From: Actinomycetes bacterium
GTDB taxonomy: Bacteria; Actinomycetota; Acidimicrobiia; Acidimicrobiales; Ilumatobacteraceae
Direction: 5' to 3'
NCBI GenBank assembly: GCA_029782355.1
Contig: JAKOUY010000039.1
Location: forward strand, 1-48,050
DNA: 48,050 bases
The notes under the pieces are model-generated. The model made no database searches, was not told where the DNA came from, and saw nothing but the letters and a program-made list of their open reading frames with translations. How positions within the stretch are numbered: position 1 is the stretch's first letter; each line of letters opens with the position of its first letter. Of the stretch, positions 10,094 through 22,595 are shown one piece after another. The translations under genes were made by a program, and so were the position numbers.

Positions 10094-11563
10094 GTGACCC
10101 CCTGGTTCGAGGCCCCGACCTGGCGCCAGAGCATCGGCGGACCATGGAAGGTGATGGTGCCGGGCGCCGCCGGCGTGATCGCCTACCTCGGACTCCTCGT
10201 CTGGGCGATGAACCACTGGCGCTACACCACCTGGGTGGTGCTGCTGCTCTTCCCGACCCTGGCAATCTCGGGCATCCTCATCCTCCGCTGGGCAACGGCC
10301 CGGGACGACGACCCGATGATGGGCGTGCTCGGTCTGGCCCTGGTGGTCAAGCTGGCGGCGGCCTGGGTGCGCTTCTACGTCTCGTTCGAGCTGTACGGAT
10401 CGGGGGACTCGCTCCAGTACCACCTCGATGCGGTCGCCCGAGCCGATCGGTTCTTCGCCCATCACGTGTCGTTGATCGACCTGGTCACGCCGCGCGCCGG
10501 CACCGCGTCGATCACCGATCTGACCGCCATGCTCTACACCGTCATCGGGCCGGCCCGCCTCGGTGGATTCCTGGTGTTCTCGTTCATCGGCTTCTGGGGG
10601 CTGTTCTTCTTCTCCCGAGCCTTGCGCACCGGCCTGCCCGAGGCCGATCACGTCACCTATGCCCGGCTGCTGTTCTTCCTGCCGTCGCTGGTCTTCTGGC
10701 CCTCGTCGATCGGCAAGGAAGCGATCATGATGTTCGGGATCGGCCTGGCCTCGCTGGGAGCGGCGCGCATCACTCGGCGAATCCCGCAGGGCTGGCTGAT
10801 CCTGGTGGCCGGGCTGGCGGTCGGCGGGCTGGTCCGCCCGCACGTATCCGCCGTCATCCTCGTCAGCGTGACCATCGCCGTGCTGTTCCGGCGACCGATG
10901 GACGAGCGCCGCGGGTTCGGCGCGGCCGGCCGGTTCGGCGGGGTGATGATCCTCATGGTCGGGCTGGCCTTCATGTTCGGTCAGACCGCCAAGTACCTCG
11001 TCCCCGGGTCGACCAAGAACGATGTCGCCGTGGTCGGGCAGGTGTTCGACAAGGCCACCGCCGGAACGGCAGGCGGCGGCTCGGTCATCGACCGACCCCT
11101 GCCCAACAACCCGCTGCAGTATCCCGGGGCGGCGTTCACCGTGCTGTTCCGCCCGACGATCCTCGAGGCGCGCAACCCCCAGAACCTGGCCGCCGCCGCC
11201 GAGACCACGGTGCTGCTCGCCATCCTCGTGGCCCGGTGGCGGCGGCTCAAGCAGCTGCCCAAGCTGGCCATGCGCCGGACCTATGTGCTGTTCGCCACGG
11301 TGTACACCGGCGTGTTCTGCTTCGCCTGGTCGGCGTTCGCCAACCTCGGAGCCCTGGCCCGCCAGCGGGTCCAGGTGTGGCCGCTGATGCTGACCCTGTT
11401 CTGCCTGCCCGAGGTGATCGACGAGGTCAGGGCCCGACCGTCGGCCGACCGGCGCCGGCGTCCAGCCACGCCTCCAACATCAGCAGCGGCCACAGCCGAT
11501 GTTCGTGATTCCGTCGACCCGACCGGTGGTCGGCCCACGTGGTCCGCACCGACTCGGCGCTGA
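10094..11563 (+). CDS. Multi-pass membrane protein, possible polysaccharide polymerase
   Basis: A 489-residue protein with about nine or ten hydrophobic segments, the first at residues 22-42 and 51-72. A loop with YGSGDSLQYH near 98-107 and the FLPSLVFWPSSIGKEA stretch near 195-210 resemble membrane proteins of exopolysaccharide loci (EpsG/Wzy-like), but I cannot assign a family firmly. RQRVQVWPLML near 420 would be the last natural membrane segment. Residues from about 445 on are low-complexity and overlap the 3' end of asnB on the other strand by 137 bp. Position straight after the chain-length kinase supports a polymerase or glycosyltransferase role. Start GTG 10094, one base after the previous stop. 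Confidence 0.6.
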   Translation: MTPWFEAPTWRQSIGGPWKVMVPGAAGVIAYLGLLVWAMNHWRYTTWVVLLLFPTLAISGILILRWATARDDDPMMGVLGLALVVKLAAAWVRFYVSFELYGSGDSLQYHLDAVARADRFFAHHVSLIDLVTPRAGTASITDLTAMLYTVIGPARLGGFLVFSFIGFWGLFFFSRALRTGLPEADHVTYARLLFFLPSLVFWPSSIGKEAIMMFGIGLASLGAARITRRIPQGWLILVAGLAVGGLVRPHVSAVILVSVTIAVLFRRPMDERRGFGAAGRFGGVMILMVGLAFMFGQTAKYLVPGSTKNDVAVVGQVFDKATAGTAGGGSVIDRPLPNNPLQYPGAAFTVLFRPTILEARNPQNLAAAAETTVLLAILVARWRRLKQLPKLAMRRTYVLFATVYTGVFCFAWSAFANLGALARQRVQVWPLMLTLFCLPEVIDEVRARPSADRRRRPATPPTSAAATADVRDSVDPTGGRPTWSAPTRR

Positions 11564-13343
11564 CCCAGCCACGGCGCACCGCCTCGGACCCGGCCACCAG
11601 CTCGTCGGCCCACGGGCGCAGGCCAGCGCGCAACCACTGGGCCAGGGGAGGGTCGAACCCGTGCTTGGCCCGGTGGACCACGTCGGCCGGCAGGACGTCC
11701 GCGGCGACGCGGCGCAACGGCAGCTTGCCGACCCCTCCCTTGGCCAGCGAGTCCGCGGGCAGGCTCCAGGCGATGTCCATGACCCGCGGATCCAGCATCG
11801 GGACGCGCACCTCCAGCGAGGACGCCATGCTGGCCCGGTCGACCTTGACCATCATCTGATCCGGCACCACCGAGGCCAGGTCGGTTCGCAGGACGGCGTC
11901 GAGGTCGTCGTCGGGGACCCCGCTGGACGGCGGGTGGGGGATGCTGCCGAGGTCGGCCTCTGCCCACAACCCGGCCAGTGCCGCCCAGGCGCTCTGCCCA
12001 CCGTGCAGGACGTGACCGGCCTTGCGAATCTTGTCGACCAGGTTCGGGGAGCGCAGCGCCGTGTGCGGGACCCGGCCGGCGACCCGCCCGAGCGGCTCGA
12101 GCAGCGCACCGGGCGCATGCCGGGCAGCACCACTCAGCGCCCGACGCAGTGGCGCGGGCCACGACGCCGATCGCCGGGCCAGGCCGAGTCCGAAGACGTG
12201 GCGGTTGTACCCGGCGAACAACTCGTCGCCGCCGTCCCCGCTGAGGCACACCGTCACGTGGCCACGCACCGCTCGGCACATCATCGCCGTGGGCAGCATC
12301 GACGGATCACCGAACGGTTCGTCCCAGATCGTCGGCATCGACCGGACCAGCTCGAAGGCCTCGGCGCGGCCCAGCTCGAGGGTTTCGTGGTCGGTCCCGA
12401 GCGCAGATGCCACCCGTTGGGCAACGATCCCCTCGTCGGCTTCCAACTCCGGCATGGTCACGGTGAAGGTCCGCAGCCGGGCGGCGCCAAGTGCTTCCTG
12501 GGCAAAGGCGGCGACCAACCCGGAATCGATGCCCCCGGAGAGGAACGCGCCGAGCGGCACGTCACTGATCAGCCGTTGGCGCACCGCCTCGCGGAGATCC
12601 GTCGACAACCGTGCGACCGCCCCGCCCGGATCGTTCCCCCGACTTCCTCGAGCCCGGGCGATCTCCGCATCGAGATCCCACCACAGCGATTGGCGCGGCG
12701 CCCCCTCGGCGTCGATCGTCAGCAACCCACCGGGCGGTAGCTGGAAGACGTCTCGGTAGATGGTGAACGGGTGGGGGATGAACGACCACCGCAACAACGC
12801 AGCCACCGACTGCTCGTCGATGTCCAGCGTGCCAGGCACCGCCACCCGCACGCCGCGCAGCTCGCTGGCGAAGTACACCGTCCGCGCCCGCCGGCACCAG
12901 TACAGGGGCTTCTCCCCACAGCGGTCCCGTGCCAGGTGCAGGCAGTCGGCGGCGGTGTCGTAGGCCGCCACGGCGAACATTCCGTTGCACCGACGCAACG
13001 CCTCGACCAGGCCCCAGGCGTCGATCGCCTCGACCAGGGTCTCGGTGTCGCTGGTGCCCCGGAAGGTGATGCCCGACCTCGCCAGCTCGGCGCGCAGTTC
13101 GAGGTGGTTGTAGATCTCTCCGTTGAACACCACCACCCAGCGAGCCGAGGCCGACCGCATCGGCTGGCGGCCGGTGGGCGATAGGTCGATCACCGCCAGG
13201 CGTCGCTGAGCCAACCCGACGTGCCCGGCAGCCCACGATCCATGCCCGTCCGGTCCGCGGTGGCGCAAGGTCTCGGCCATGGCCGCGGCCAGATGCTCCC
13301 GATCCGGGCCAGCGGGTCCGAACAGCCCGGCGATGCCACACAC
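11427..13343 (-). CDS. asnB: Asparagine synthase (glutamine-hydrolysing) family protein
   Basis: A 638-residue class II amidotransferase. GTG 13343 is chosen because it places the catalytic N-terminal Cys at position 2 (VCGIAGLFG); the frame is open 14 codons further upstream but that would bury the Cys. The glutaminase domain shows RHRGPDG, RLAVIDLSPTGRQPM and VVFNGEIYN. The synthetase domain has the PPi motif LSGGIDSG and CLSGDGGDELFAGY. Family members make asparagine, but homologues in surface-sugar clusters often amidate uronic acids, and lasso-peptide clusters use a variant as lactam synthetase; the intact glutaminase site favours an ammonia-transferring amidotransferase. A TACCGT box lies 8 nt before the start. 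The 3' end overlaps the convergent membrane gene. Confidence 0.85.
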   Translation of the reverse strand: MCGIAGLFGPAGPDREHLAAAMAETLRHRGPDGHGSWAAGHVGLAQRRLAVIDLSPTGRQPMRSASARWVVVFNGEIYNHLELRAELARSGITFRGTSDTETLVEAIDAWGLVEALRRCNGMFAVAAYDTAADCLHLARDRCGEKPLYWCRRARTVYFASELRGVRVAVPGTLDIDEQSVAALLRWSFIPHPFTIYRDVFQLPPGGLLTIDAEGAPRQSLWWDLDAEIARARGSRGNDPGGAVARLSTDLREAVRQRLISDVPLGAFLSGGIDSGLVAAFAQEALGAARLRTFTVTMPELEADEGIVAQRVASALGTDHETLELGRAEAFELVRSMPTIWDEPFGDPSMLPTAMMCRAVRGHVTVCLSGDGGDELFAGYNRHVFGLGLARRSASWPAPLRRALSGAARHAPGALLEPLGRVAGRVPHTALRSPNLVDKIRKAGHVLHGGQSAWAALAGLWAEADLGSIPHPPSSGVPDDDLDAVLRTDLASVVPDQMMVKVDRASMASSLEVRVPMLDPRVMDIAWSLPADSLAKGGVGKLPLRRVAADVLPADVVHRAKHGFDPPLAQWLRAGLRPWADELVAGSEAVRRGWVSAESVRTTWADHRSGRRNHEHRLWPLLMLEAWLDAGAGRPTVGP

Positions 13344-13351
13344 CGGGCGCA

Positions 13352-13357
13352 ACGGTA
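13352..13357 (-). promoter_or_regulatory. Probable -10 box (asnB)
   Basis: Minus-strand TACCGT ends 8 nt before GTG 13343, fitting a leaderless or near-leaderless transcript and supporting that start over the upstream one. Confidence 0.4.
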
Positions 13358-13404
13358 CCGGGCGGGCCGAACCCCTCGGCACCACTCAGTAGCGTGAGTG
13401 GCCG

Positions 13405-15421: not shown

Positions 15422-17194
15422 TCACGTCTCCTTGGCGATGCCCGAGAGCTCCAGCGACTCGCGGTAGAACTGATTGTTCGCCGCCAGGCGCTGGGGCGTG
15501 TCGAAGCCCTTGACCACGCCGTGCTGGATCACCATGATCCGGTCACAGATCTCCAGCGTCGACAGCCGATGGGCGATGATCACCACGGTCACCCGGCCGC
15601 GCAGCTCGGCCAGCGCGTCCCGGATCAGCGCCTCGGAGTGGACGTCGAGCGAGGCGGTCGGCTCGTCCATGATCAGCAGGCGCGGATGACCGGCCAGCGC
15701 CCGGGCGATCGAGACCCGCTGGCGCTGCCCACCCGACAGGGACGACCCCCGTTGGGCAACCGGAGTGTGGATCCCGCCCGGGCGGGACTCGATCTCCTCG
15801 CCCAGGTTCGCCGCCGACAGGGCGGCGCGCACGTCGTCGTCGGAGATCCCCGAGCGCAGGAAGCGCACGCACTCGGCCACGGTCGTGCCCAACAGCACCG
15901 GGTCCTGCGGGACGAACGAGCTGAGCGCCGTCCACGATGCCCGGCTGATGTCCGACAGGTTCGTCCCGTCGATCAGCACGCTGCCCTGGTCCGGGTCCCG
16001 GAGTCCGAGCAACAGCTGGACCAATGTGCTCTTCCCGCTCCCCGACGGCCCGATGATGCCGACGATCTCCCCGGCACGCATGTCGAAGGAGACGTCGTGG
16101 AGCACCGGCCGGTCCGGCTCGTAGCCGAAGCTGACGTCATCGAAGCGGATCGACTGGAACCCGTCGATGCTCCGACCGGTGCTGGGAACGGCCTGCGACT
16201 CGAGGTCGGTCACCGCACCGTCCAACACGTCGATGGCGGGCAGTGAACCGTTGACCAACGCCGAGGAGACCTGCAGCGACTGGCCGTAGCTCAGGCAGCG
16301 CATCATCACCAGCAGCACGGCGGCGATGTCGTCGAGCGCACCGGCGCTGGCGAAGGTGGCCAGCCCGAGCGCGGTGACCAACGCCCCGTACGCCAACATC
16401 ACGTACGTCGGGCTCATCAGCCCGCCCAGTCGTTGGGCGCGCAACGCCGGGCGGCTGACCCGTTCGATCGACCCGTCGAAGACCGCGGTGAACTGTTGGC
16501 CGACCCCGAAAGCCTGCATCTCCAAACCCATCGAGCCCAGCTCGGCACACTCGCCGGCGAACCCCAGCTGGGCCACGGCGGCTCGGTGGGAGACCCGGCG
16601 GATCCGCTTGCGCAGCGGGGCGAGCACCGAGCTGAGCGCCGACAGTGCGATGAGCACGACCACGGTGGCGATCGGGTTCATCGCCAGCGAGACCAGCAGC
16701 AAGGCCATCAGGTTCAGCCCGTACGACCGCCATGCGGCGTACCCGGCCACGAGCGTCGACGAGCTGGCGGCGACGCCGGACATCAGCTCCTGCAACCGGC
16801 CGGCCGGCATGCGCTGCAACGTCGGCCAGCCAGCGCGGACGTAGGCCTCCGCCAGACGGTGGCGTTGCTCGGTGACCACCCGGACCGCCAGACGGGACTG
16901 CACCCACAGGCCGTAGACCGTCAAGGCGTACCGTGCCGCAAGGATCCCCACGGCGACCAGCACCGCCTGCAGCACCGTGGTGTGGACCCCGGGCGCCAGG
17001 GCGAAGACCTCCTTGCGTTTGGTCACCGCCAGCGCCGTCTTGCTGATGATCACCAGCACACCGGCCTCGGCGATGCCACCGAGGAACGCCGTGGCGACGA
17101 CCACGCGCAAGGATCCCTGCTTGTCGCCGACGAGGCGCTCGATGGCAGCCCGGACCTCGCGGCGCGACGCCGTGGAGGGCAGCAGGCGGGGCAC
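15422..17194 (-). CDS. ABC transporter, fused membrane and ATPase domains (MsbA-like)
   Basis: A 590-residue half-transporter that would act as a dimer at the inner membrane. Residues about 30-320 hold six hydrophobic segments (e.g. VVVATAFLGGIAEAGVLVII). The ATPase domain has Walker A GPSGSGKST near 381, Q-loop FVPQDP, signature SLSGGQRQRV near 484, Walker B LLIMDEPTAS near 507 and the H-loop IIAHRL. This layout exports lipid-linked glycans, lipids or peptides. Its start codon lies only 48 bp from the divergent HprK-like gene of the PqqD cassette, suggesting shared regulation. It could export the glycan or a modified peptide; the sequence does not decide. Confidence 0.85.
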   Translation of the reverse strand: MPRLLPSTASRREVRAAIERLVGDKQGSLRVVVATAFLGGIAEAGVLVIISKTALAVTKRKEVFALAPGVHTTVLQAVLVAVGILAARYALTVYGLWVQSRLAVRVVTEQRHRLAEAYVRAGWPTLQRMPAGRLQELMSGVAASSSTLVAGYAAWRSYGLNLMALLLVSLAMNPIATVVVLIALSALSSVLAPLRKRIRRVSHRAAVAQLGFAGECAELGSMGLEMQAFGVGQQFTAVFDGSIERVSRPALRAQRLGGLMSPTYVMLAYGALVTALGLATFASAGALDDIAAVLLVMMRCLSYGQSLQVSSALVNGSLPAIDVLDGAVTDLESQAVPSTGRSIDGFQSIRFDDVSFGYEPDRPVLHDVSFDMRAGEIVGIIGPSGSGKSTLVQLLLGLRDPDQGSVLIDGTNLSDISRASWTALSSFVPQDPVLLGTTVAECVRFLRSGISDDDVRAALSAANLGEEIESRPGGIHTPVAQRGSSLSGGQRQRVSIARALAGHPRLLIMDEPTASLDVHSEALIRDALAELRGRVTVVIIAHRLSTLEICDRIMVIQHGVVKGFDTPQRLAANNQFYRESLELSGIAKET

Positions 17195-17200
17195 GCCGCA

Positions 17201-17206
17201 AGGTTA
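17201..17206 (-). promoter_or_regulatory. Probable -10 box (ABC transporter)
   Basis: Minus-strand TAACCT, 6 nt before GTG 17194. Together with TAGCAT at 17230-17235 it forms a compact divergent promoter pair in a 48-bp gap. Confidence 0.45.
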
Positions 17207-17229
17207 CGGCCGGCAACGGCAGATGCCAG

Positions 17230-17235
17230 TAGCAT
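17230..17235 (+). promoter_or_regulatory. Probable -10 box (PqqD cassette)
   Basis: TAGCAT followed by 7 nt and GTG 17243. It would drive the HprK-like, PqqD and downstream genes as one leaderless transcript. The identical hexamer occurs at 24697-24702 (minus) and 24735-24740. Confidence 0.5.
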
Positions 17236-17242
17236 CCTCCCG

Positions 17243-18022
17243 GTGATCGGCGGGCACCGAGGCCTCGGACCGTCTGCGCTCGACACCGTCGGCGTGGTGG
17301 ACGTCGGTGACTCGATCGTCCGGATCCGCAGCAACCGCCCGTCGTTCTTCCTCGACCATCTCCCCGTTCGGGTGGACGGCGACCCGACTCAGCCCGCCCG
17401 GCGCACCATCGACGTCGTGGCCGCCGAGCGACCCTGGCCACACTGGTCGCTCTGGATCGACGAGGTCCGACGCTCGGGCACCGAGGGCGACGGAACCGTT
17501 GCGGCGCGGGTGATCGCCGAGCTTCAGGCCGCGGCCGCCGAGCTCGCTGGCCTCGGCGTGGACGGAGATTGCCTCGCCGACGGATCGGCGGGCTACGCCA
17601 TCGTCGGTTCTCGGTTCGGCGGCCGTCCGTCGCTGAGCTCGGCATTGGTCGCCACCGGTTGGACCACCGTGTCGAGTGGCGTGATCGCTCTGACAGGTGA
17701 ACGCCGAGCGCTCCGGCTGGGAGCGACGGGGACGGCCGGCGAGGCCCCGGCAGGTCCGTCGTCGGTCGACATCGTCGGCGTCGCCATCCATGCCATCGGC
17801 GCACCCAACGAGACCACGGTGGAACGCCTCTCCCAGGGTGCGGCCATGATCGAACTGTGCCGCGCCGCCACCGATGCGGGCCGCCCGTTGACCGAGCAGG
17901 GGTTCGACCGCTTGGCTCGCCTCGCCAGCGCCGTGCCGACCTGGCAGGTCACGATGGAGAGCATGGATGCCGAGCACGCCGCCACCTTGCTCCGGGTCAG
18001 GTCAGGGGGTCGCGAGCCGTGA
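17243..18022 (+). CDS. HprK-like protein with a degenerate P-loop
   Basis: A 259-residue cytoplasmic protein. In layout it recalls HPr-kinase-related proteins that accompany PqqD genes: an N-terminal beta-rich region (about 15-75), then a segment at 117-150 that lines up with the kinase core. There GSRFGGRPS (122-130) stands where Walker A GxSGxGKST is expected and VSSGVIAL (143-150) where VSDDVVAL is expected. The catalytic Lys and the acidic pair are therefore missing, so I infer a pseudokinase or a scaffold. This family link is my reading and needs a profile search. GTG 17243 is set by the -10 box. It overlaps the PqqD start (GTGA), so the two are coupled. Confidence 0.5.
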   Translation: MIGGHRGLGPSALDTVGVVDVGDSIVRIRSNRPSFFLDHLPVRVDGDPTQPARRTIDVVAAERPWPHWSLWIDEVRRSGTEGDGTVAARVIAELQAAAAELAGLGVDGDCLADGSAGYAIVGSRFGGRPSLSSALVATGWTTVSSGVIALTGERRALRLGATGTAGEAPAGPSSVDIVGVAIHAIGAPNETTVERLSQGAAMIELCRAATDAGRPLTEQGFDRLARLASAVPTWQVTMESMDAEHAATLLRVRSGGREP

Positions 18023-18348
18023 CGTCGATCCCGCGCCCGGCGCCCGGGGTGCTCGTGGCCGAGTTCACCGACGATGGGTACGAGCTGGTCGTCCATCGCA
18101 CCGGGGAGCGTTCGACCTTTCTGCTCGCCGGCACGGCAGCGGCGCTGTGGCTGATGATCGACGGCACGAACACCACCGAGCAGATCGTCGCCGATCTGGC
18201 AGAGGCGTACGGCACCGACCCTGGCTCGATCTCGGCGGACGTCGCCGAGGCGCTCGACGTGCTGGACCACTGCGGCCTCGTGGCCGCCGACATCCCGAAG
18301 CCTGCTGCCGACGATCTCGTCCTCCTCCCACGACCGGCCGACCCTTGA
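18019..18348 (+). CDS. PqqD-family (RRE) peptide-binding chaperone
   Basis: A 109-residue protein with the PqqD fold: RPAPGVLVAEFTDDGYELVV, then STFLLAGTAAALWLMIDGTNTTE, QIVADLAEAYG, and a helix ending in VLDHCGLV. The LAGTAAALWxxIDG signature and the E-x-I-xxLxxxYG helix are characteristic. PqqD proteins are RiPP recognition elements that hold the leader of a precursor peptide for a modifying enzyme. Homologues also occur beside HprK-like genes in polysaccharide loci, where the partner is unknown. No precursor-like small gene is visible nearby. The GTG at 18019 overlaps the previous stop by four bases. C-terminal residues from about 90 are Pro/Asp-rich and probably disordered. Confidence 0.82.
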   Translation: MTSIPRPAPGVLVAEFTDDGYELVVHRTGERSTFLLAGTAAALWLMIDGTNTTEQIVADLAEAYGTDPGSISADVAEALDVLDHCGLVAADIPKPAADDLVLLPRPADP

Positions 18349-18495
18349 GGGTCGCGCATCAATCGCCCGGTCTGGGCGACCACCCTCGACATCGCCACCG
18401 GTCCCTGGCGCGTCGGACTGCGAGTCGACCGGCGGCAGCTGGCTGACCAGGTCATCGCCCACCTGGGCAATCGGGCCCGACGGTCGCTCGAGCTC

Positions 18496-19008
18496 GTGCC
18501 CGACCACTACTCGCTGGTCGCTCCGCGCCTGCTCGCCGGGCACGGCACGCTGTATCGGCGCGTCACGCCCATCGCCGAGAGCCGGCGCACGGCCAAGTTG
18601 CTCGAAGCCCTGGATGCCGAACTGGCCTCCCTCCAGCCACCGCAGCCGTGCATTCGGGTCGTTGCCGCCTCGCTGTCCACGCTGGATGCGGCCGTGCTGA
18701 TCGACAGCGGATTCGATCGCCTCCCCGCCGGGACGGGCTTCGAGGCCCACCCGGCGCGGGCGCTGTGGGTCGATCCTGAGCGGATGCAGATCATCGAGCC
18801 AGCCACCGGCGAACGCCGATCACTGGCTGGCTTGCTGGCCTCCGGCCTGCCTCGCACCCCACGCCTGGTGATGCAGATGGTCGATCCATCCACGGATGCA
18901 CTGGCCGACCGTTGGCTCGACGTCGTCAGCCGCCTCGATCACCAGGATCGAGTCCAGTGGACCGACGATCCGCGGACGCCGGCCCGGACCTGGTTGGCAG
19001 GCGGTTGA
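18496..19008 (+). CDS. Unknown protein, third gene of the PqqD cassette
   Basis: I do not recognise this protein. From the first standard start (GTG 18496) it has 170 residues, but protein-like sequence continues upstream in the same frame to the PqqD stop (18349), including WATTLDIATGPWRVGLRVD, and contains no ATG, GTG or TTG. An ATC at 18358, 6 nt after GAGGG, or a CTG at 18418 may be the true start, giving up to about 216 residues. The segment CIRVVAASLSTLDAAVLIDSG followed by ALWVDPERMQIIEP faintly recalls HprK-type layout but has no P-loop. No signal peptide or membrane segment. It is tightly spaced behind PqqD and probably works with it. Confidence 0.55.
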   Translation: MPDHYSLVAPRLLAGHGTLYRRVTPIAESRRTAKLLEALDAELASLQPPQPCIRVVAASLSTLDAAVLIDSGFDRLPAGTGFEAHPARALWVDPERMQIIEPATGERRSLAGLLASGLPRTPRLVMQMVDPSTDALADRWLDVVSRLDHQDRVQWTDDPRTPARTWLAGG

Positions 19009-19032: not shown

Positions 19033-19563
19033 TCAGGCGCTGACGATCGCCCGGCGCCGGCGGGAGGTCCCGACCACCAGCATCGCACCGAGCATGGCGG
19101 CGAGGGCGCCGAGCCGCAGCAGCGGACCGGTGGCGTTCGAGCCGGTGCTGGGCAGCGGCGTGCACTCCACGAGCTTGACCTTGCCGCTCAGGGTGAATGG
19201 GTTGCCGGCTGCATCGACACCCGTGGCCGTGACCACGAACGAGCCGATCGTCCCCGTCGGCAGGGCGAGGGTGAAGAACGCCTCACCCTTGGCGGTCGCG
19301 GTCACGGTGACCGGACCGGCGACCGGTGCCAGGCGCTTCCATCCCGATGCGGCCGACGTGAGCGTGACCGTCACGGTGGAACCGGGCTGTACGACCTCGA
19401 CCTCACCCGTGATCTTCGTGGCGTTGCAGGCCAGCGGATCGATCTCCAGGATCGGCGCCGACGGCGGGTAGGCCTCCGACGGGGGCTGCTGGGCGGAAGC
19501 CGTGCCGGCGAGGCCGACGAGGGTCAAGGCGATGACCCCGAGCACGCTGCTCATTCTCGACAT
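19033..19563 (-). CDS. LPxTG-type cell-wall surface protein
   Basis: A 176-residue exported protein. The start ATG 19563 follows GGGAGG by 5 nt. Residues 1-25 are a signal peptide (VLGVIALTLVGLAGTASA, cleavage after ASA). The mature part is a small beta-rich domain (about 60-130: STVTVTLTSAASG, SFVVTATGVDAAGNPFTL) of bacterial Ig-like appearance with two Cys. The C-terminus is a sorting signal: LPSTGS near 144, a hydrophobic stretch and the tail TSRRRR. A sortase would link it to the wall; none is encoded in the window. It lies just downstream of the DUF4012 gene on the same strand, suggesting surface display alongside the polysaccharide. Confidence 0.8.
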   Translation of the reverse strand: MSRMSSVLGVIALTLVGLAGTASAQQPPSEAYPPSAPILEIDPLACNATKITGEVEVVQPGSTVTVTLTSAASGWKRLAPVAGPVTVTATAKGEAFFTLALPTGTIGSFVVTATGVDAAGNPFTLSGKVKLVECTPLPSTGSNATGPLLRLGALAAMLGAMLVVGTSRRRRAIVSA

Positions 19564-19606
19564 GGTGGCCTCCCAGCTGGCGCGCCCGCGCCCGGTGACC
19601 AGCAGC

Positions 19607-21925
19607 CTAGCCACGCAACGTGACCCGTTCCAGCGCGTCGAACAGGCCGACGCGCTGAGCGCGCAGGACACCACTCGGAGTCGTGATGCGGATGCTCACC
19701 GTATCCGGCTGGGCCGAGGGCTGCGGAATTGCCACGACGTCGTAGTCGGCGGGGCGCGCCAGTTGCCCACCGACGTGCAGATGCACGGTCCGTCGGGAGT
19801 CCGGAGGAACGTCGAGGTACATCGACGTCACCACCCACCCATGCTCGCTCTGGGTCTGCACGGCGGCGGGTTGGCCGTCCACGGTGGCGGCGTCGACGGG
19901 GAAGCGGGTGTAGATCGACAGGTACATCCGGTTGGTACCGACGGGCAGCCCGCGCTGGTTGCCGACGGCGTAGGTGGACAACGACTCGGGGTGTTGGACG
20001 GTGTTGTTCAGCGTGACGTCGAGGTCGGCGCTGAGCCGCCGGTTGGCCGAGTCGAGCGTGGCCCGATACTCGACGGTGCGGCGCAGGTAGGCATCCAGCT
20101 TGTTCCCGCCGGCGTTGTTGACCACCACGGCGAAGCCGTCGGCACTGGCATCGGCGCGGGGCAGGGCGCCGTCGACCCCGATGGCCGACAGCAGCGTCTG
20201 GTCGTCGGGGTGCAGCGACCACACGGTCAGGCGGCGCTGGGCGATGGCCGGGCCGACCGCTTCGGCCACCACCCGGATTCCCGGCAGCGAACCGTCGAAC
20301 ACGGCGGACAGCAGTTGCTTGGTGAGCTCGGCTTGGACCGCGTCGCGCTGGCCGTCGTCACGGAACCGCTCGTACTGGTCGTACAGCAGGTACTGGGTGA
20401 GGTTGTCGGCGGTGAGCTGGCCATCGAGGCCGGGCACGGTGAGCGGACCGGTGAGCTTCATGAACCGGGCGATGGTGGGGACGTCGAGGGCGATGACCCC
20501 GTCGATCCTCGTCCCGCCGGACACCGGATAGAGCTGAGCGACGACGTCGGCGATCGTCGGCAGGTCGGGCGGCATGGTCACGTTCGACCAGAAGTCGATG
20601 GCGACCGGGGTCTGACCGTTGCCCGCGCCGAACGGTCCGTAGCGGCTGACGTACTCCGGCGGCATCTGGAGGGTGCGGCGCGGCGCCCCACCCAGCAGAT
20701 CGATGGTGCTGCCCGTGCGGGCCACGCGGATGGATCCGTGATCGACATGCAGCTCCGCCCACGACGCCATGTACCCGCCGAGGCCGCGAGCCTCGGCGGG
20801 TGTGGTGAAGGCGACGAAGTACGTACGCGGTCCGTCGCGACCCAGCATGGACGGCGCCACGGCCACGGTGTCGAGGCCGATCTTGGTCTGGCGGACCAGC
20901 CCATCGACCTCCCGGGCGACCGGGCGGAGCCGGCTGGCCAACGGACCGATCAGCCACGGGTCGGATGCCTCGGCCATGGCGTGCTGCAACTCGACCAGAC
21001 CGTGGTAGGTGCGCTCGAGGGGCGACGACAGGGCGGTCACCGCGTCCAGGTCGATCACCCCGTTGCGCACCGACAGCGAGTCCAGGCTGATCGACGCCAA
21101 CGACGACGCCGCCGTGGTGCCGAGGTGCTCGCCGGCCACCGACAGCCGCCCGAGCGCATCGATCTGCTGACCGACGATGGGCACCACCCGGGCCAACCAG
21201 CCCCACGGGCGGCGCAGCGAGGTGGCCGCGTCGTGCAGGTCGGTCCGGCTCTCCCCGATCAACGTCGAAGCCCGATCGAAGTCGCCGGAGCGTAGGGCGC
21301 TGAGGGCCTGGCGAAGCGTCGTGCGACTGTCGGTCAGTGACGACCTGGCCAACAGGCCGGCCGCAACGGCGCCGACCGCACCGAGCACCATCACCCCGCC
21401 GGTCAGCAGCATCGCCCGACGAGCCCGGTGACGGACCAGGCGGGAGCGGCGGGTGAGGCCGGCGATGGACGCGGTCACGGCGAACACCCCCACCAGCAGA
21501 GCCGAGTCGCCGTGGAAGGCATGGAGGTGCAGCCGGAGCAACGCCTGGGCGATCAGCGCGGCGCTGGCGGCACGCATGACGGGCATCCGCCGTTGCCCGC
21601 TGCCGACGTACATCGCTGCCAGGAATCCGGCCACCGCGCACCCGATCGGCCACGGGTCGCTGGACAGCGGCGTGGCCACCAGGCCGGCAACCCCGAGGAT
21701 CCACCACCGGGTGGTCGCCGACGCCCACACCACCGCCGCGGTGACGGCCACGGCCCACACGGCGTTGGCGGCGCGCAGTGGCGTGGGGTGCAGGTCGGCC
21801 ATCATCGCGCCCACTCCTGCCGCCCCGGCGATGAGCGCCACGAGCACGGCTTCGTTGCGGTGGATCCGGACCCGGCGCGATCCGGGGCGGCGCTGCTCGG
21901 TGTCGGTCTGCGCCACGGCGGACAT
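19607..21925 (-). CDS. Large DUF4012-domain membrane protein
   Basis: A 772-residue protein. The N-terminal 200 residues hold five or six hydrophobic segments (e.g. EAVLVALIAGAAGVGAMM, AMLLTGGVMVLGAVGAVAAG). The remainder is extracytoplasmic with the DUF4012 signature TYFVAFTTPAEARGLGGYMASW near residue 367, matching the RYLVLFQNNAELRPTGGF pattern. DUF4012 proteins are common in actinobacterial and other polysaccharide loci; their biochemical role is not established. ATG 21925 (MSAVAQTD) is used; the frame is open upstream but that part is antisense to the phosphatase gene's 5' region and low-complexity. It may be co-transcribed with the LPxTG gene downstream. Confidence 0.8.
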   Translation of the reverse strand: MSAVAQTDTEQRRPGSRRVRIHRNEAVLVALIAGAAGVGAMMADLHPTPLRAANAVWAVAVTAAVVWASATTRWWILGVAGLVATPLSSDPWPIGCAVAGFLAAMYVGSGQRRMPVMRAASAALIAQALLRLHLHAFHGDSALLVGVFAVTASIAGLTRRSRLVRHRARRAMLLTGGVMVLGAVGAVAAGLLARSSLTDSRTTLRQALSALRSGDFDRASTLIGESRTDLHDAATSLRRPWGWLARVVPIVGQQIDALGRLSVAGEHLGTTAASSLASISLDSLSVRNGVIDLDAVTALSSPLERTYHGLVELQHAMAEASDPWLIGPLASRLRPVAREVDGLVRQTKIGLDTVAVAPSMLGRDGPRTYFVAFTTPAEARGLGGYMASWAELHVDHGSIRVARTGSTIDLLGGAPRRTLQMPPEYVSRYGPFGAGNGQTPVAIDFWSNVTMPPDLPTIADVVAQLYPVSGGTRIDGVIALDVPTIARFMKLTGPLTVPGLDGQLTADNLTQYLLYDQYERFRDDGQRDAVQAELTKQLLSAVFDGSLPGIRVVAEAVGPAIAQRRLTVWSLHPDDQTLLSAIGVDGALPRADASADGFAVVVNNAGGNKLDAYLRRTVEYRATLDSANRRLSADLDVTLNNTVQHPESLSTYAVGNQRGLPVGTNRMYLSIYTRFPVDAATVDGQPAAVQTQSEHGWVVTSMYLDVPPDSRRTVHLHVGGQLARPADYDVVAIPQPSAQPDTVSIRITTPSGVLRAQRVGLFDALERVTLRG

Positions 21926-22039
21926 TCTTGCCGAAGACCCCCGCCGACCCCGCGCCACCCGGCCCACGCCAGCTCCGCGCGTGCGTGGGCGAACGGGCGG
22001 GCGGCCGGCGGGCGGGGTGGGGCGGCGCGAGATGGTCGC

Positions 22040-22045
22040 TACGGT
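22040..22045 (+). promoter_or_regulatory. Probable -10 box (tyrosine phosphatase)
   Basis: TACGGT followed by 7 nt and GTG 22053. It supports GTG 22053 over the upstream ATG at 22032, which lies before the box. Confidence 0.45.
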
Positions 22046-22052
22046 TGCCGGG

Positions 22053-22595
22053 GTGTCCGAGTCGGTGCCGTTGGTGGTCGTCGTGTGCACCGGCAACATC
22101 TGCCGCTCGCCGCTGGCCGCCGCCCTGCTGGCCAACGGATTCGCCCGGCGCGGGATGGGCGTCGAGGTCACCTCGGCCGGAACGGCTGCTCCGGTGGGAG
22201 CGGCGCCAGACCGCAACCTGCTGCGCGTGGCCGACGATCTCGGCCTCGACCTGCGCAGCCACCGCGCCCAACGGGCGACGCCCGAACTGCTCGCCACCAG
22301 CGACCTGGTGCTCGCTCTCACGGCCGGGCACGCCGCCGAGGTCCGGGTCCGAGCCGGTCGGGCCGCGATCACCACGCTGCTGGCCGCGGCGCGCCGGGCG
22401 CCACACATCCCGGCCCGCTCGTTGGGGTTCGCTGCCTGGGTGCAACGGCTGACGGCCTCCTACGACGAGCAACCGGCGTACGTGGCCGGCGCCGACGACA
22501 TCGCCGACCCGTACGGTGGCCCGCGACGTGCCTACCGGCGGATGGCTGCCGAGGTCGACGGGGCCGTCACCCAGCTGCTCTCCGCGTGGGACTGA
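22053..22595 (+). CDS. Low-molecular-weight protein tyrosine phosphatase
   Basis: A 180-residue Wzb-like phosphatase. The N-terminal P-loop VCTGNICRSP gives the catalytic C12 and R18 of the C-x5-R motif, and the general acid is D152 in IADPYGG. In capsule loci such enzymes dephosphorylate BY-kinases, and the likely partner is the kinase at 8320. The gene abuts the stop of the convergent glycosyltransferase-GNAT gene with no gap. Slightly longer than the usual 145-160 residues because of an insertion around residues 95-135. Confidence 0.9.
   Translation: MSESVPLVVVVCTGNICRSPLAAALLANGFARRGMGVEVTSAGTAAPVGAAPDRNLLRVADDLGLDLRSHRAQRATPELLATSDLVLALTAGHAAEVRVRAGRAAITTLLAAARRAPHIPARSLGFAAWVQRLTASYDEQPAYVAGADDIADPYGGPRRAYRRMAAEVDGAVTQLLSAWD

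Follow-up and report, generated by a model that had tools for sequence, protein, structure and literature searches.

This work concerns a three-gene cassette in an Actinomycetes bacterium of the family Ilumatobacteraceae (contig JAKOUY010000039.1 of assembly GCA_029782355.1). The whole stretch of DNA that was analysed, positions 1 to 48,050 of the contig, is called the window (48,050 nucleotides), and the three genes, which form tightly packed open frames on the plus strand at 17243-19008, are called the trio. A PqqD-family gene lies between genes for two kinase-like proteins, which are assigned below to two families named K and D. RRE denotes the recognition element of ribosomally synthesised and post-translationally modified peptides (RiPPs).

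17243..18022, plus strand: K homologue, a degenerate HprK-related kinase; GTG start, TGA stop
18019..18348, plus strand: PqqD-family (RRE) peptide-binding protein, PF05402; GTG start at 18019
18349..19008, plus strand: D homologue, a predicted second HprK-family pseudokinase without a P-loop, identified by its kinship to the D profile

The K and PqqD genes overlap by 4 bp, with the PqqD start inside the K stop. The third frame is the same as that of PqqD and is separated from it by a single TGA, the PqqD stop at 18346-18348. A minus-strand frame at 17593-18750 was dropped because the plus-strand frames match families.

The two families were recognised by comparing loci. When 298 genomes of the order were searched for PqqD, 31 of them, including that of the window, gave a match, and 20 stretches chosen from the PqqD and K searches of the order were read. 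They show a recurrent pattern, in which PqqD is followed by a protein of about 258 residues without a P-loop (D) and an HprK-like protein that has kept its P-loop (K) is often encoded close by. Individual loci are cited below by their L labels.

The proteins of the trio

At E <= 1, the first protein matches nothing in Pfam or NCBIfam. An iterated hidden Markov model of D and K proteins, built without the window, scores it at 44 bits (E 6e-12) over model positions 8-264. An intact K of the same genome (L177), longer by about 32 residues, matches it over almost the full length (BLAST E 4e-11, pairwise, without composition correction) and is also its nearest relative in the tree described below (support 99/92). 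When its AlphaFold model (predicted local distance difference test, pLDDT, 70.1; predicted template modelling score, pTM, 0.64; 29 sequences in the alignment) was submitted to Foldseek, 49 of the 50 matches listed were phosphoenolpyruvate carboxykinase (PEPCK) or HprK/P (HprK/P E 3.3e-4), and the model aligns with a PEPCK structure over 243 residues at 4.3 Å (VIA Z 13.2). The model is not independent of the assignment to K, because its alignment consisted of K relatives. The structural match to HprK that the initial annotation had proposed as a check is thus found.

Neither the GxxGxGK(S/T) Walker A motif nor the acidic pair of an active HPr-type kinase is present in this protein, which has Arg in the Lys column, Pro in the Thr/Ser column, Ser in the Asp column and Gly in the Glu column. 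The segments GSRFGGRPS and VSSGVIAL, from which the initial annotation had read the replacement of the Walker A Lys and of the acidic residues, are present as quoted. By sequence, the window K is a member of the HprK/PEPCK superfamily and a pseudokinase. As a single query it gives weak matches in 5 of the 298 genomes of the order, its own included, and among 150 genomes of the family it matches its own genome only (1/150).

The PqqD protein, which had been described as part of a coupled cassette, indeed scores 46.7 bits against PF05402 (cut-off 23.4). Its best NCBIfam score is 25.9 bits with the lasso PqqD model, the cut-off of which is 70, and TIGR04353 is not among its 7 NCBIfam matches at E <= 1. 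As a single query it found no relative in the genome contigs.

The third protein, previously left unrecognised, has neither a Pfam match above cut-off nor an NCBIfam match at E <= 1; three D proteins tested likewise reach no Pfam or NCBIfam cut-off. Profile comparison nevertheless places it. The first five D proteins match it with hhalign Prob 75 (P 2.5e-5), and a profile of 19 D proteins, none of them from the window, with Prob 97 (P 8.4e-11, 149 columns), while the smallest P among 60 random frames compared with the D profile as a control is 0.21. When the same profile is run on its own genome, the third protein is the only match at E <= 0.001 (E 3.3e-11; 8 of the 106 first-look candidates scored). 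In a maximum-likelihood tree of 72 domains, from which four K domains shorter than 180 residues were left out, it groups with 26 D domains (support 100/98), apart from K. The P-loop is absent, with gaps or other residues at the motif columns, and the N-terminal pattern of the D family is kept. Lying inside the D clade, without a P-loop and directly 3' of PqqD, the third protein is by sequence a second and older HprK-superfamily pseudokinase, of the D family.

Its frame is unusual. Counted from the PqqD stop it has 219 codons, against about 258 in its relatives, and contains no ATG, GTG or TTG before 18496, yet the kinship to D begins near 18358. The sequence GAGGG stands at 18347-18351 and is followed by ATC at 18358, which is a possible unusual start codon of the third gene.

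Some limits apply to the D-profile searches. The search of the own genome and of the order returned the 19 alignment rows of the profile by construction. Among the other matches, G146, G049, G104 and G137 are the K domains of L081, L057, L060 and L047, G095 and G113 were scored as K (L190, L191), G052:C157 overlaps a K domain (L086), G090 and G101 have a D score of 21-22 bits (L192, L193), and G264 was left out of the classification.

The D and K profiles match each other with hhalign Prob 98.6 (P 8.3e-16, 248 columns), and on this comparison the two families are one superfamily. Against sequences of the PDB, the D profile found nothing and the K profile only weak matches, which included HprK and PEPCK. 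Of 48 K domains, 46 have the Walker A Lys and 47 the Asp. The Lys is found in none of the 27 D domains, the window's included, a count that holds partly by construction because the lack of a P-loop was one of the reasons for choosing the 19 D seeds; the eight D domains that were not seeds, again with that of the window, give the cleaner count of 0/8. Because the Lys is kept in 46/48 K and in 0/27 D, D is a long-standing clade of pseudokinases, and the window K lost its residues in a separate event, probably a later one.

Besides the window K, the only K proteins without the Walker Lys are those of L092:7552-8688 and L098:7352-8488, from two genomes of one genus, where PqqD and K share one frame and Ala replaces the Lys and DA the DE. 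In other phyla, L111:4338-5135 and L118:2026-2814 code for HprK-like proteins with an intact P-loop and, by eye, a D-type N-terminus. They are possible living relatives of the D ancestor, and because they combine a D-type N-terminus with a kept P-loop, they suggest that D derives from an active kinase. The PqqD of L177:8897-9745 carries a C-terminal extension of more than 100 residues, which may be a shortened D, although the tests are weak (against the third protein of the window, pairwise BLAST 1.2e-4 and hhalign P 0.011).

Gene order and surroundings

A PqqD gene lies at most 400 bp upstream on the same strand for 23 of 27 D genes, a count that is biased because the first D seeds came from PqqD neighbourhoods. 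A search of the phylum with the D profile gave, besides the window, six new D and five K proteins (G509 was left unclassified), and all six new D genes, a near-identical pair among them, have a PqqD gene 54-201 bp upstream. For 17 of the 26 D genes outside the window, a K gene is present at a distance of no more than 2.5 kb. The trio itself, which the initial annotation had proposed to seek in other genomes, is found as K-PqqD-D on one strand at 7 other loci (L047, L058, L060, L085, L087, L106 and L185). L185 belongs to another order of the same class, and L106 is on a contig labelled Rhodobacteraceae. Since other bacteria have the same layout, in most cases with one of the kinases intact, the window trio resembles a reduced form of a system that has been little studied and that perhaps handles exported proteins.

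The following features surround the trio.

17195..17242, no strand: divergent intergenic region of 48 bp, common to the trio and the ABC exporter, from the frame positions
15422..17194, minus strand: ABC exporter; ABC_tran above cut-off, ABC_membrane just below
11427..13385, minus strand: AsnB-type amidotransferase; TIGR01536 above cut-off
19033..19674, minus strand: small secreted protein with LPSTG, a hydrophobic stretch and RRRR at the end; LPXTG-like, Pfam score below cut-off
19607..22408, minus strand: DUF4012 protein, given as the longest frame with a provisional start; a homologue adjoins PqqD-D in L041

The exporter starts at 17194 on the minus strand and the K gene with GTG at 17243, so that the divergent arrangement and the 48-bp spacing reported earlier stand, as does the AsnB-type gene. 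The exporter is part of the setting, and a functional tie to the trio is putative only. The AsnB-type protein, also part of the setting, has its top NCBIfam score with TIGR03108, the XrtA/PEP-CTERM amidotransferase model (459 bits, below its cut-off), and scores 400 bits with TIGR01536, asparagine synthase (above cut-off). The locus also contains genes for a glycosyltransferase, a sugar epimerase and a ParA-type ATPase, which we read as CpsD-like. Because of these genes, together with those for the AsnB-type and DUF4012 proteins, the surroundings look like a polysaccharide locus.

Such a setting had been considered odd for a PqqD protein; among D loci it is common. A relative of the PF14907-type nucleotidyltransferase of L047 is present at 13 of 25 D loci (L047, the source of the query, included) against 14 of 75 K loci without D, and a relative of the window's ParA/CpsD-like ATPase at 12 of the 24 D loci outside the window, compared with 6 of 75 K loci without D, the loci compared varying in length and phylum. 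Of these 24 D loci, one has an AsnB relative and two have a DUF4012 relative.

Exported proteins near the cassettes

Small proteins with a signal of the twin-arginine translocation (Tat) type, with the consensus RRDxLKxxAVxGAxVWxAP, recur next to the cassettes. In the window's own genome there are three strong K matches outside the window (L177, L178 and L179), each of which keeps the Walker Lys and adjoins PqqD, and a Tat-like protein lies just downstream of each cassette (L177:9824-10462, L178 ~9999 and L179 ~9214; contigs 20, 19 and 6). Two of the three carry a W-A-P type motif in the hydrophobic part; two are included as rows in the signal profile, and only a motif scan found the third.

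For 148 genomes of the order, 61 Tat matches with E < 1e-5 were kept and weaker rows were dropped. Of all 61, rows of the model included, 24 lie within 5 kb of PqqD. Among the 47 not used in the model the number is 10, against about 0.39 expected, a value that assumes one genome size and ignores contig breaks. PqqD is present in 24 of the 27 genomes with Tat matches compared with 50 of all 148 (relatedness ignored). In the order, the Tat signal is thus partly linked to PqqD.

A looser scan finds a Tat-like frame within 3 kb at 54 of 100 PqqD loci, many of these matches being false, including frames inside the nucleotidyltransferase. The density of its matches per 10 kb is 1.20 within 1.5 kb of PqqD, 0.30 at 5-7.5 kb and 0.65 beyond (3 matches). 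A link specific to D, for which a strict scan gave 9 of 25 D loci, was dropped, since the scan also gave matches at 21 of the 88 fetched loci that have no D. In proteobacteria, Tat-like small proteins also lie upstream of PqqD-kinase pairs, some 360-840 bp away from PqqD (L116:5101, L117:5074 and L126:5087 in sphingomonads; L103:637, L108:4592, L110:4699 and L112:5214).

A small Tat-exported protein is accordingly a candidate client of PqqD. In the window, the LPXTG-like protein at 19033..19674, encoded by the convergent neighbour of the trio and the exported protein nearest to it, is a possible alternative. Secreted proteins with a mature start like AQ(Y/Q)PP were noted by eye near cassettes in the window (19036-19674), at L041:5527-6321 and at L190 ~9594. 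Because exported proteins are linked to the cassettes, the data suggest that the unit serves a protein client, rather than a glycan or a cryptic peptide.

Known systems and competing explanations

The pairing of PqqD with an HprK-like kinase is already recognised in NCBIfam, where TIGR04352 (HprK_rel_A) and TIGR04353 (PqqD_rel_X, 'HPr-rel-A system PqqD family peptide chaperone') are named for it. Four K relatives match TIGR04352 (HprK-related kinase A; E 7.8e-13, 2.9e-19, 6.3e-15 and 2.6e-34), with up to 118.6 bits against a cut-off of 200, and one fused PqqD passes TIGR04353 (36.5, cut-off 35). The HPr-rel-A system resembles the cassette in having PqqD beside an HprK-related kinase; it differs in that, at E <= 1, the window K and PqqD have no match with either model, and in that no window frame matches the L047 PF14907 protein (single-sequence query, E 1e-6), a nucleotidyltransferase that we take to be part of the HPr-rel-A system. 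The SynChlorMet cassette offers a similar pair: one of its NCBIfam models, ScmD, is PqqD-related, and another, ScmC, presumably kinase-like, has weak matches among the K relatives; all these scores are far below cut-off. HprK/P and PEPCK share the fold predicted for the window K, whereas this protein has neither the Walker A Lys nor the acidic pair, and no link to HPr was seen.

Lasso peptide clusters with kinases (paeninodin, pseudomycoidin) are also comparable. A review reports that HPr-kinase homologues phosphorylate lasso precursors at the C-terminal Ser and that a nucleotidyltransferase adds one or two hexoses to the phosphorylated peptide in pseudomycoidin (PMC8498205); in a survey, an HPr kinase, PqqD and an uncharacterised nucleotidyltransferase are present in ruminal species screened for lasso genes (PMC7533575). 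An HPr-kinase homologue, PqqD and a nucleotidyltransferase are thus reported with lasso genes. The window differs from these clusters in that its AsnB is of another subfamily and its kinase is inactive as judged from its motifs; no precursor or leader peptidase was seen, though the whole window was not searched for them.

In open-licence PubMed Central, no paper was found on HprK and PqqD together, none among those listed that names HPr-rel-A, TIGR04352, HprK-related or SynChlorMet, none among those listed with HprK pseudokinases as its subject by title, and none on nucleotidyltransferase, PqqD and polysaccharide in Sphingomonas. The initial annotation had proposed that a pseudokinase-PqqD unit would be new. 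As far as this literature was searched, what is new is the conserved dead D subunit and the version in which K is dead as well; the pairing of PqqD with an HprK-like kinase is not. The remark that no RiPP precursor is visible stands to the extent that none was seen, no systematic search having been made.

The explanation that we prefer, and that we consider an even call as a whole, takes the K-PqqD-D unit to be kin to the PqqD/HprK-related-kinase ('HPr-rel-A'-like) cassettes, with D as a non-catalytic member and with both kinase-like subunits dead in the window, and includes the mechanism below. From the family assignments, the catalytic losses and the gene order, all of which are read from sequence, we infer the following mechanism. 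PqqD would grip a peptide segment of the client, probably an exported surface protein or Tat-type secreted protein. In the relatives, K would phosphorylate a Ser of this client, and the PF14907 nucleotidyltransferase may add a sugar to the phosphate, by analogy with pseudomycoidin. The role of D would be non-catalytic, to hold or tune K and PqqD. On the same analogy, the K-PqqD(-D) cassette may attach phosphate or a phospho-sugar to an exported protein as a mark. Because both kinase-like subunits are dead, the window unit would be limited to binding, either as a scaffold or adaptor or by supplying PqqD to an intact kinase that is encoded elsewhere in the genome.

Several observations weigh against this explanation. 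The model of the third protein has a pLDDT of 53.8, and a fold search with it gave no PDB match at E <= 0.001. A K-only profile sees the window K at 16 bits (E 0.0099; hhalign P 0.0016), and the 150 genomes of the family provide no close relative for a selection test. As stated above, the PF14907 query has no match in the window. Motif scans found no Tat-signal protein near the trio, 37 of the 47 Tat matches outside the model are not within 5 kb of PqqD, and a fourth, weaker K of the own genome (30 bits) lies near PqqD with no Tat match, in a fetched stretch that ends about 440 bp beyond.

Decay of the cassette is a serious rival, although we rate it as somewhat unlikely. The unit would have lost its client and its selection, K its catalysis, and D its usual start and tail. 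This would account for the four motif residues and about 32 residues missing from the window K, for a short D with no canonical start near the beginning of its homology, and for the absence both of a K match in the 149 other genomes of the family and of a Tat protein near the trio. The end branches of the window K and the third protein (1.81 and 1.72, against a median of 0.93) and the GC content at third codon positions, which is 0.82-0.86 in the trio against 0.93 in the ABC gene and 0.88 in the AsnB gene, point the same way. However, the three frames are open and the overlap of K and PqqD is kept, PqqD scores well above its family cut-off, and the third protein retains the N-terminal pattern of its family. 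The loss of the Walker Lys in D is not a sign of decay, because all 26 D relatives are also without it, and a K with Ala at this position persists in two genomes of another genus.

A more specific form of the preferred explanation, which we hold to be unlikely, makes D an ancient obligate pseudokinase that, with PqqD, would capture a Tat-exported or surface protein and present it, within the polysaccharide locus, to an HprK-like kinase and a nucleotidyltransferase for phospho-glycan marking; the window would then contain a pure capture device of two dead kinases and an RRE.

It is improbable that the degenerate proteins are enzymes with another chemistry, such as nucleotide transfer or ligand sensing, in which the Walker A Lys is no longer needed. 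The HprK/PEPCK fold of the window K model and the conservation of D across many genera are consistent with this, but D varies at every motif position, and its 19 rows contain no invariant column and one nearly invariant one (Gly). A lasso-like RiPP cluster with an unseen precursor, in which PqqD would be B1, the HprK-like protein a tailoring kinase, AsnB the cyclase and the ABC protein the exporter, is very improbable, because, although lasso PqqD is the best NCBIfam model for the window PqqD and lasso clusters can contain HPr kinases and nucleotidyltransferases (PMC8498205, PMC7533575), AsnB fits TIGR03108 and TIGR01536 better than the lasso cyclase model (199, cut-off 525), its relatives are nearly absent from other D loci, and no leader peptidase model was matched by the window proteins searched, which were not the whole window.

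PqqD domains serve as beacons for RiPP discovery. The RRE-Finder paper reports that, of almost 8,000 proteins for which its discrete lasso RRE model is the best match, only about 4,000 co-occur with the lasso peptidase and cyclase. The recurrent combination of PqqD, an HprK-like kinase and a dead partner would give some such PqqD proteins a concrete role outside RiPPs, and the small Tat-exported proteins would be a testable class of clients for the cassette. A conserved pseudokinase branch of the HprK superfamily would, in addition, be useful for studying dead-enzyme subunits.

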